A stretch of DNA of 38,042 bases, taken from NCBI GenBank assembly GCA_029975915.1, contig JARKOC010000505.1:1-38042 (forward strand). Reading direction: 5' to 3'. The notes beneath the pieces are model-generated. The model was not told where the DNA came from, ran no database searches, and saw nothing but the letters and a program-made list of their open reading frames with translations. A program made the position numbers and the translations under genes. Below are positions 6,652 to 24,783 of this stretch, piece by piece. Source of the stretch: Bryobacteraceae bacterium (GTDB lineage Bacteria > Acidobacteriota > Terriglobia > Bryobacterales > Bryobacteraceae). Position 1 is the stretch's first letter. Each line of letters begins with the position of its first letter.

Positions 6652-7662
6652 TCAGCTCGAGGTCGGTCGCTGACGTCGCCGCGATGGTCGGGACATACGG
6701 GCAGAGAGACGAGATGCTGTTTCCTTGCCACGCCGGGTGCGACGGAAGGCGAAGAGATGAACCAAATCCCCATCGACGTTCAGTGCTCCCCCATCAACCT
6801 CGTCAGACTCGATTCGAATGTCTGCCCCGATTCCAAGTGCTGCCACCTTCATCGCATCCGCAGCGCCGACGCTCTTCAAAAACTCCGCGGCCGCATCGGC
6901 TGAAGCCTCGGCAACTCCGGGCTGCGGTTCATCGATTGCATCGAGAGCGTAGCCACGAACCAGCTTTGGAAGCGCTGCCCGAAGAGTGTAGGAGTGGTCG
7001 AAAAGGTCGATTCCTCGGACCTCACCATTGATGGCGAATACGGCTCCGCACTGCTGGGCGCCGGCATGAAAGGCCTGGGCGTACTCTTCGATCTGAGGCG
7101 CGTGGTCCAGGTACATGGCCATCATGGCGCCGGTCGCAGAATGCGTTCCGAGCCGACTAGCCTTCTCCTCCAGGTCCGCCCAAACATCGACTTGATTCGA
7201 CCTGCGCTCTCCCGACGACCGCATGGATTCCGTGACGTGTGCGGCGCGAGTTGCCCTCCCTCTCGCGTATTGGGCATGAGGCGCGGATCGGAACGATGGC
7301 GACTCATAGGCCCACCTGCCTGCCTCAACGCAAGAAACTGGGATTCGGATTGTTGAACGCGCTGGGACGAGCACGGTCAGATTCAGAACGCGGTTTTGTT
7401 TCGCTCCGACCAGTTCCTCGCCGTCTATGATGAGGACCGGCCGATCAGCGGAGTTGATCACTTGCAGATCCGGGACTGACCCATCCGCTGAGACCTCTCT
7501 GATCAGCAAAGCTCCCTGATCAATTGCTTCGTCAAGCAGGATGTACGGCGGGCAGACGGCGGCATCAGGACATGAGAGAGCGATGATGCTCAGATTCCGG
7601 AAGGCGACTGGCGGGCCTATGTGAAGCTCGCCGAGCCTCTCGTGGATTTCGTAGCTTTGCAT
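6652..7662 (-). CDS. ARPP-1-like protein (DUF6569), probable NAD/ADP-ribose-linked protein
   Basis: 336 aa from the ATG at 7662. The frame is open further to a TTG at 7713, but the family-like region starts just after the ATG (LGELHIGPPVAFRNLSIIAL), so I prefer the ATG. The segment with PVLIIDGEELVGAKQNRVLN followed by TVLVPARSTIRIPVSCVEAGRW is what I associate with ARPP-1 (ARG- and rhodanese-phosphatase-associated protein), a family seen near ADP-ribosyl-glycohydrolase, macro and NADAR genes and thought to act on NAD-derived molecules. Catalysis is not shown. It faces a macro-domain gene across a control region, which supports an ADP-ribose theme. The last 30 residues are Arg/Ser-rich and look unstructured. 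The family call is from memory of its motifs. Confidence 0.7.
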   Translation of the reverse strand: MQSYEIHERLGELHIGPPVAFRNLSIIALSCPDAAVCPPYILLDEAIDQGALLIREVSADGSVPDLQVINSADRPVLIIDGEELVGAKQNRVLNLTVLVPARSTIRIPVSCVEAGRWAYESPSFRSAPHAQYARGRATRAAHVTESMRSSGERRSNQVDVWADLEEKASRLGTHSATGAMMAMYLDHAPQIEEYAQAFHAGAQQCGAVFAINGEVRGIDLFDHSYTLRAALPKLVRGYALDAIDEPQPGVAEASADAAAEFLKSVGAADAMKVAALGIGADIRIESDEVDGGALNVDGDLVHLFAFRRTRRGKETASRLSARMSRPSRRRQRPTSS

Positions 7663-7674
7663 ACACCCAGCGAA

Positions 7675-24300: not shown

Positions 24301-24783
24301 GGCCGTTACCTTGGGCTCAAGATCAGCAAAAACGTGGACGTCGACATCAGCCAAGGGCTGGTGGTGAAGCCTGAAATGGCGATCCTGCAGCTCGATATCG
24401 AGGAGGAAGAGAGGCGCAAACGCGAGGCTGAGAGACGGGGAGACGGCGGCGGCGGGCGTGATGAAGGTGGCGGCCGCGATGAGAAGGACGAGAAGAAAGA
24501 CGAAAAGCGGGACGACAAGAAGGATCCCGATCCGCGGCCAAAGCCCAAGCCGAGACGCTTCCACGGGTCGGTAACTCTCGATGCACGCCGGTTCGTCCGA
24601 AACGCCGGCGACCTCTCGCAAGAAGTGCTTCAGCACCTGGCGGGTTTGGCCGGCGCGGAGGTTGAGGTGCGCATCGAGATCGGCGCGAAGATTCCCGACG
24701 GCGCGCCCGATCACGTTGTCCGCACGGTCAGCGAGAACTGCCGGACCCTGAAGTTCGGGTCCTTCGGCTTCGAGGAGGAGTGA
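21388..24783 (+). CDS. Swt1-type HEPN / DUF499 ATPase
   Basis: 1131 aa. Residues 1-125 form an Swt1-like HEPN domain (ERIGKAMELLRDGIRPYVER) with R93-x4-H98 in RKKWAH, the Rx4-6H motif of HEPN ribonucleases. Then comes the DUF499 P-loop ATPase: NFGGGKTH (245-252) and Walker B LILIDE (356-361). A highly charged Lys/Asp/Glu/Gly stretch (about 1005-1055) links to a final 75-residue domain. Such proteins probably act as the ATP-driven effector or motor of a methylase-linked defence system, with the HEPN part as a potential RNase (inference). It is the last gene of the operon, 23 bp after the methylase, and is followed by a strong hairpin. Confidence 0.92.
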   Translation: MAITNYERIGKAMELLRDGIRPYVEREMAAARGKNWLQEAIQAAQIPDGPPLKQELSDPAFLLKILWQGWNDVFRVKLGQGERTLVSELMEVRKKWAHMGTFSYDDTYRALDSIERLLTSVSAGQSDEVNRMKRDVMRVKFDEERRLEQRKSERAGLKMEADSALKPWREIVTPHKDVQSGRYLQAEFAADLWQVYLGEGSEEYRLPVEFFRRTYLTEGLRQLLVTALRRVSGKAADPVVELQTNFGGGKTHSMLALFHLFSGKAKTELPGLEEVFTEAGVDSIPKVRRAVLVGTKISPGQPSRKEDGTLVRTLWGEIAWQLGKREAYEMLRESDEKATNPGDVLRQIFNKYAPCLILIDEWVAYARQLYGQGNALPSGSFDTQASFCQALSEAARAAKDTILVVSIPASEAIPPSGSDPTEFSDSEIGGEGGRAALDMLEQKIGRIQSPWRPAAAEESFEIVRRRLFDEIHDQNLYRARDAVVRAFADMYRKDSGEFPPHASRSDYERRLTVAYPIHPDMFESLYNDWSSLERFQRTRGVLRLMASVIHNLWDSEDRSLLILPASIPINERTVESELLRYLPPTWAPVIEKDVDGGDSLATEMDRENPNFGRYSACRRVGRTLFIGSAPTHDTARRGREEKQILLGCVQPGENAGTFTTALRRMAERGQYLYSDGQRYWYSTQLSVNRRAEDLAKELLDRRIHEVHKDIKDRVRKQLERRENRGEFARVHDFPDSSADVPDDMQARLVIMGPSHVHVRGAEDSEARKQAAEILRSRGASPRNYANALMFLAGDRTGMASLEKAVAQYLAWKEICAREDELNLDKYNREQAKKRRETAEETVDIRLPEAYSWLLAPTMPDPKDGKTEWRTTQLQGKDALAVRASKKVTGERLLLTQYAGSVLRLQMDDARAPLWQGDHVSVRQLAEYFAKYLYLPRLKDTKVLIEAVATGVATLNPQAEGFGYADGYDEARGRYLGLKISKNVDVDISQGLVVKPEMAILQLDIEEEERRKREAERRGDGGGGRDEGGGRDEKDEKKDEKRDDKKDPDPRPKPKPRRFHGSVTLDARRFVRNAGDLSQEVLQHLAGLAGAEVEVRIEIGAKIPDGAPDHVVRTVSENCRTLKFGSFGFEEE

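Follow-up and report, generated by a model that had tools for sequence, protein, structure and literature searches.

A probably inducible Hma (Type-1 BREX-Related) operon with a rare dynamin-like insert in a Bryobacteraceae bacterium

Introduction

Is a defence operon in which helicase and methylase genes are separated by a dynamin-like GTPase gene a system of its own, or a known system that carries additional genes? The question is raised by a locus on contig JARKOC010000505.1 of a Bryobacteraceae bacterium (assembly GCA_029975915.1), of which positions 1 to 38,042 were analyzed; this whole stretch is called the window. A sequence-only reading had interpreted the locus as a distinct six-gene system controlled by a CARF/sigma-54 activator. 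As described below, it is a real and intact operon of the Hma type, also termed Type-1 BREX-Related (BR), which is probably inducible and carries a rare dynamin-like insert.

Eight co-directed genes span 7796 to 24783 in the order macro-like, CARF activator, hmaA, p199, p547, GTPase, hmaB and hmaC (Table 1), and all are open frames with one stop each. The frames overlap from the helicase gene through p199, p547 and the GTPase gene to the methylase gene, and the GC content is similar across the block (0.57 to 0.62). An alternative 199-aa open reading frame at 13902-14501 was rejected as the real gene, because the coupled frame at 14101-14700 fits the operon and the length given in the sequence-only reading. 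The genes and domain assignments of the sequence-only reading thus hold (that of the macro domain weakly), as does its view that this looks like an inducible defence operon, situated beside a CARF/sigma-54 regulator and containing an unusual gene of the dynamin type.

The Hma core

The name Hma dates from 2021, when it was given to a candidate defence system of three genes (PMC8565338); a redescription of 2026 calls it the Type-1 BR system, with a HEPN-DUF499 protein, a DUF1156 methylase and a helicase-nuclease (PMC12839542). The latter paper also states that a study confirmed the anti-phage role of the helicase experimentally. All three components are recognized in the window by the PADLOC Hma profiles: HmaA with 1711 bits (residues 9-1173), HmaB with 1129 bits (residues 2-903) and HmaC with 1050 bits (residues 164-1130; the profile does not cover the HEPN part). 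Pfam adds NOV_C at the C-terminus of HmaA (60.6 bits), where a candidate nuclease motif, D-I-E...E-V-K, begins at 1084, as well as DUF1156 in HmaB (105 bits) and both HEPN_Swt1 (114 bits) and DUF499 (126 bits) in HmaC, the former with an RKKWAH motif. Judged by their motifs, the core proteins would retain helicase, nuclease, methylase, HEPN RNase and ATPase functions.

The likeness to Type-1 BR extends to architecture. HmaA, HmaB and HmaC occur on the same strand and in the same order, HEPN is fused to DUF499 (as in part of the subtype), the methylase is of the DUF1156 N6 type, and the SNF2 helicase carries a C-terminal PD-(D/E)XK nuclease domain whose motif is kept. Hma has been described with three genes, whereas here there are six, with p199, p547 and the dynamin-like GTPase gene between hmaA and hmaB, and a CARF/sigma-54 activator precedes the operon. 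The extra genes were not treated as excluding Hma, because 23 of 34 other Hma loci with co-directed hmaA and hmaB also hold at least 900 bp between them. PglZ, a Type-3 BR gene product, had no Pfam match among the operon proteins (the C-terminal fold of p547 was outside this test).

DISARM was also considered. HmaA resembles DrmD (398 bits in PADLOC) and, through its helicase part, DrmA (225 bits), but the operon has no second helicase and no DrmB or DrmC match among its other proteins. For HmaA itself, DrmB was not among the best 25 of 59 families listed. With one helicase in the operon, and a match of HmaA to its own family far above that to DrmD, DISARM was rejected.

The core is therefore a catalogued Hma set, and the evidence does not make the locus a distinct six-gene system. 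Here the sequence-only reading was only partly right: operon, regulator and GTPase stand, and the claim of distinctness is too strong, since helicase, methylase and ATPase are the catalogued ones and the remaining three genes were not found in any of the 39 Hma loci compared. What is unusual is the dynamin-like insert and the switch.

Table 1. Genes and candidate regulatory sites of the Hma locus (positions in the window)
Feature	Position	Strand	Remarks
Operator-like palindrome CAAC-N4-GTTGAT, copy 1	7736..7749	+	Upstream of macro-CARF
Operator-like palindrome, copy 2	7756..7769	+	20 bp from copy 1
Macro-domain-like protein, 348 aa	7796..8842	+	1 bp before CARF gene; domain match below cut-off
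CARF-AAA+-HTH sigma-54 activator, class RtcR_PspF2	8844..10415	+	Score 423 bits; retains GSFTGA loop and arginine finger
Operator-like palindrome, copy 3	10435..10448	+	CARF-hmaA gap; likely enhancer
Sigma-54-like -24/-12 site TGGCATCCCACGTGCC	10512..10527	+	3 mismatches; alone not significant (p ~0.10)
HmaA: SNF2 helicase with C-terminal NOV_C/DUF3883 PD-(D/E)XK nuclease domain	10583..14104	+	Motifs present
p199, insert gene 1	14101..14700	+	Without significant family match
p547, insert gene 2	14693..16336	+	Predicted PLD-fold N-domain without HKD, plus C-terminal part
Dynamin-like GTPase with DUF7605, insert gene 3	16317..18638	+	
HmaB: DUF1156 DNA methyltransferase	18635..21364	+	DPPY and DPFCGGG motifs
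HmaC: Swt1-like HEPN (RxxxxH kept) fused to DUF499 ATPase	21388..24783	+	

The insert between hmaA and hmaB

The comparison set consisted of 39 other Hma loci. Six come from plasmids, picked by hand among 113 records in which HmaB was matched, and 33 come from whole genomes, mainly the strongest of 49 HmaB places with repeats counted once. Five were left out of the gap count: L024 and L067, where hmaA is reversed, L055 and L070, with no hmaA on the contig, and L069, which is broken. Proteins in the long gaps were scanned in 14 of the 23 loci (the remainder being L022, L053, L064, L065, L095, L102, L104 and L106, together with L093, which was judged by its likeness to L091). The inserts of L091 and L093 are of equal length, with identical first 90 residues, and were counted twice.

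Recognizable toxin- or defence-type domains occur in 12 of the 14 scanned gaps. These include a PARIS-like AAA protein with DUF4435 (L014), Septu PtuA/PtuB (L048), AbiEii-type ATPases (L049, L096), YhcG/DUF1016 nucleases (L050, L056), DarTG (L052), Schlafen AlbA_2 (L090), GmrSD_N (L091, with L093 alike), MNT-HEPN (L094) and PIN domains (L100, L105). Of the other two, L054 has an HTH-M78 protein and L015 a protein whose Sacsin match falls just short of cut-off. Backup nucleases have been reported next to or inside core loci (PMC12839542); the text of that paper, apart from its supplements, contains no occurrence of GTPase, dynamin, DarT, Septu, YhcG or Fic, and one of CARF, in the reference list.

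Across these 13 loci, L093 included, the hmaA-hmaB interval looks like a docking slot for unrelated toxin or defence modules. In L094 the gap also contains, before a complete hmaB, a 74-aa frame (4110-4334) that starts like the N-terminus of HmaB, a possible footprint of the arrival of an insert.

In the window this interval is 4530 bp long. Neither p547 nor the GTPase was found in any of the 39 other loci, so the trio resembles cargo more than a part that defines the system, and the insert is best seen as rare cargo of an often-filled slot.

The three proteins differ in how much can be said of them. For p199 there is no significant family match (the best Pfam row, with E 0.095, is far short of cut-off). 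The N-terminal domain of p547 is predicted to adopt a PLD fold, with fold-search rows spanning residues 2-236; the PLD catalytic motif HxKxxxxD (HKD) is absent in 23 of 23 aligned members. The GTPase has a Dynamin_N domain, a long helical stalk and DUF7605, and its best predicted fold matches are 5oxf, SynDLP and mitofusins. It shares the Dynamin_N domain and helical stalk with bacterial dynamin-like proteins (BDLP, the 5oxf pair, SynDLP and LeoABC), but it differs from them in carrying DUF7605, in being a single gene rather than a pair and in being embedded in Hma. LeoABC was rejected as an identification, the PADLOC LeoA and LeoBC matches to the GTPase reaching just 28 bits over short stretches.

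Alignments of the GTPase and p547 found no relative among viral contigs. In plasmids, neither p547 nor the macro protein had a relative within the limits applied, and just two dynamin matches, both distant, were obtained. In 377 genomes the GTPase alignment (with 2 candidates per genome scored) gave 1 distant match, and in L001 no gene next to the distant GTPase matched a defence system in Pfam. At 10 listed genome-contig GTPase loci (mostly partial matches, some with short flanks) tblastn with eight window proteins returned the GTPase match alone.

Protein searches gave a different kind of evidence. Close relatives of the GTPase and p547 come from contigs of equal size (8174, 23848 and 140710 bp), as do those of the GTPase and the CARF activator (12888 and 140710 bp) and of p547 and the activator (24181 and 140710 bp; for CARF, among the 120 of 342 matches listed). 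Four of the eight GTPase clusters with at least 78% identity have such an equal-size-contig partner, p547 or CARF. This suggests that in relatives the activator is linked to members of the trio. Among the close CARF relatives, P0141 (69%) is named as coming from a metagenome-assembled genome of Bryobacterales, an order of Acidobacteriota.

The CARF activator and its relatives

The activator belongs to the class RtcR_PspF2, matching PDLC01995 over residues 3-521 in PADLOC with the architecture CARF-AAA+-HTH. It is not RtcR proper, the rtcBA regulator, for which it scores 335 bits against an NCBIfam equivalog cut-off of 650. Among 87 plasmid records with a match, five have one that covers 80% or more of the activator, and in all five it is upstream of, and co-directed with, a restriction-type operon. 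A type I restriction operon follows it in L017, L020 and L019 (there in fragments), and a vWA-phosphatase-kinase-helicase-McrB/DUF2357 operon in L018 and L021, in the latter with one small gene between.

The activator profile matches 279 of 282 genomes, mostly via the AAA+ part common to such activators. From the genomes 23 regulator loci were fetched, leaving aside the full-length match G272 and partial matches. The 12 best full-length matches (at least 597 bits) are followed by HsdR-type genes in 6 cases (three weak, 123-134 bits), the vWA-kinase operon in 2, Hma in 1 (L050) and unassigned genes in 2, and 1 lies at a contig end. The 12 lower-scoring fetched loci (422-556 bits) had no such operon downstream; in one of them, L148, an HsdR-like gene is divergent and upstream of the activator.

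In L050 the gene order is CARF, HmaA, YhcG nuclease, HmaB, HmaC, which makes it an independent example of Hma preceded by this switch. L050 and L144 share one contig (G092:C16), where a Hma operon and an HsdR-type operon, some 150 kb from each other, are both headed by this activator class and have similar paired operators. The class likewise heads the vWA-PP2C-kinase-helicase-McrB/DUF2357-type operon in L018, L021, L141 and L145, and one-mismatch sigma-54 sites occur in three of these four (all except L021).

RtcR-like CARF/sigma-54 activators were noted beside restriction-modification systems in 2014 (PMC4012209) and linked to CoCoNuTs in 2024 (PMC11090510). The arrangement of the window shares with those cases a CARF-AAA+-HTH protein before a co-directed restriction-type operon and a proposed RNA-end signal; it differs in that the operon is Hma and that a macro-like gene precedes the activator. 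An activator of this kind attached to Hma was not found in the parts of the literature searched. CoCoNuT itself was rejected, with no McrB match among the operon proteins.

Operators and sigma-54 promoters

The palindrome CAAC-N4-GTTGAT occurs at the three places given in Table 1, with an overlapping reverse match at 7756, and nowhere else in the 38 kb. The number expected is 0.07, and none of 100 shuffles reached four. The sites are confined to two promoter gaps, those upstream of macro-CARF and of hmaA. Pairs of the shorter CAAC-N4-GTTG (at most 1 mismatch), 21 bp apart, are also present upstream of the regulator in L050 and, without mismatch, in L144. Among 19 regulator loci, a pair was seen in 3 and a single site in 1.

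A GG-N10-GC site (the -24/-12 elements) just after the activator gene is significant for the class as a group. Across 18 class loci the Fisher p is 6e-11, and in the 11 class loci that were not used to form the idea p is 2.8e-6; in 11 low-scoring controls p is 0.99. L143, whose contig ends in the gene, was left out, and the border between class and controls (556 vs 535 bits) was drawn after the scores had been seen. The longer consensus TGGCAC-N5-TTGCW with at most 2 mismatches gave 19 matches in the whole window against 16 expected, and a sigma-70 and terminator scan of 7600-10700 found no excess. With significance at the level of the class and a weak site in the window, sigma-54 control is likely for the activator class and plausible for this locus.

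A gene of the ARPP-1 family (6652-7713, minus strand, 306 bits) diverges from macro-CARF. The paired operators lie in the intervening 82 bp, and the activator may therefore control both sides. As a guess, the macro-like protein and ARPP-1 may tie the switch to ADP-ribose chemistry.

Proposed mechanism and alternatives

The reading favoured here, and judged somewhat probable on balance, is a Hma (Type-1 BR) operon with three extra genes between helicase and methylase that is likely switched on by the upstream CARF-AAA+-HTH activator. In the uninfected cell the activator would occupy the paired operators and limit its own gene. RNA ends made during infection would bind the CARF domain; by analogy with RtcR these may be 5' tRNA halves with a 2',3'-cyclic phosphate. 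The AAA+ ring would then act on sigma-54 RNA polymerase at a promoter near 10512, with the operator at 10435 as enhancer. Hma would work like a restriction-modification system, HmaB marking self DNA and HmaC with HmaA finding and cutting unmarked DNA. As a late response the HEPN domain of HmaC would cut RNA. HEPN RNases leave cyclic phosphate ends according to the CoCoNuT authors (PMC11090510), and HmaC, if its HEPN domain is active, would in this way supply signal to the switch. The trio is likely a second-layer effector, in which p547 and p199 would sense DNA or the failure of Hma and relay it to a GTPase acting at the membrane. We infer the feedback loop, the ligand sensed, the repression of macro-CARF by its own product and the action of the GTPase at the membrane. 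The most far-reaching form of the idea, a self-amplifying two-layer operon with an RNA-break switch, a Hma core whose HEPN makes more signal and a PLD-fold adaptor that arms a membrane-breaking or membrane-reshaping GTPase if restriction fails, is an unlikely one.

Several observations weigh against the favoured reading. Among the other Hma loci a CARF gene is seen in 1 of 39 (L050), a count that rests on 34 loci, with L054, L055, L068, L070 and L090 stopping less than 1.5 kb upstream of hmaA. The operator repeat was spotted by eye first and counted afterwards, so that the count was not blind; no CAAC-N4-GTTG site lies near the regulator start in 15 of the 19 loci, nor is there one in the CARF-hmaA gap of L050. 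The GG-N10-GC site is missing from 4 of the 18 class loci, L144 included, and that of the window is weak (Table 1). RtcA/RtcB are required for activation of RtcR (PMC9650030), and neither rtcA nor rtcB was seen among the window proteins scanned. Finally, neither the complete six-gene order nor the trio was met in any other DNA read, the 39 Hma loci included.

The weak sigma-54-like site and the lack of a CARF gene in 38 of the 39 loci as read could also mean that the regulator does not control Hma at all, macro-CARF being a neighbouring unit and hmaA having its own constitutive promoter. This is improbable: the operator is common to both gaps, restriction-type operons follow this activator class at nine of the 12 top-scoring genome loci and in all five full-length plasmid records, and the CARF-Hma pairing recurs in L050. 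That the six genes are one dedicated system in their lineage, with p199, p547 and the GTPase as obligate parts of a Hma subtype, is rather doubtful. The overlapping genes from hmaA through hmaB and the contigs of equal size in relatives, with partners for half of the close GTPase clusters, argue for it. Against it are the absence of p547 and the GTPase from the comparison set and the slot that in most loci is filled with other DNA; moreover, equal size is no proof of the same contig, and the size matches cover the GTPase, p547 and CARF, not HmaA, HmaB or HmaC.

The role of the GTPase is a separate matter. Some bacterial dynamin-like proteins aid membrane integrity under stress, and the fold here is that of bacterial dynamin-like proteins, so that it could be a repair or membrane-maintenance protein that shields the envelope during infection rather than an effector. 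Its place inside a defence operon, in a slot that elsewhere often holds toxin-type genes, makes this explanation rather doubtful too.

Neighbouring genes

Beyond ARPP-1 the minus strand carries an SbcC/SbcD-like pair (2366-6600). Its ATPase is of the AAA_23 type and matches LmuB weakly, and its metallophosphoesterase has an SbcD_C domain; two unassigned genes (286-2302) come next. On the other side of the operon, at 24881-26771 (minus strand), an HD-domain protein (dGTPase-like, 41 bits) is beside a 192-aa protein like the C-terminal part of DarG (PADLOC, 33 bits). A serine recombinase and then two RepB/ParB-type genes (27080-30452, plus strand) form a mobile-element signature close to the defence genes. 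In the region 30476-36260 (minus strand), one protein has the TIM barrel of a non-contractile tail sheath (PF23845) and another a carbohydrate-binding domain (CBM_4_9), and phage-type genes may thus abut the island.

Implications

The locus ties a CARF sensor of the RNA-damage type to BREX-related DNA restriction, with candidate operators and a candidate promoter mapped. A dynamin-like GTPase in the hmaA-hmaB slot would be a membrane-type module that, for Hma, was not found in the parts of the literature searched. If the two-layer mechanism were true, bacteria would have an equivalent of the antiviral Mx-type GTPases that is coupled to a system related to BREX. Different genomes fill the slot differently, and Hma may in this way carry layered immunity.
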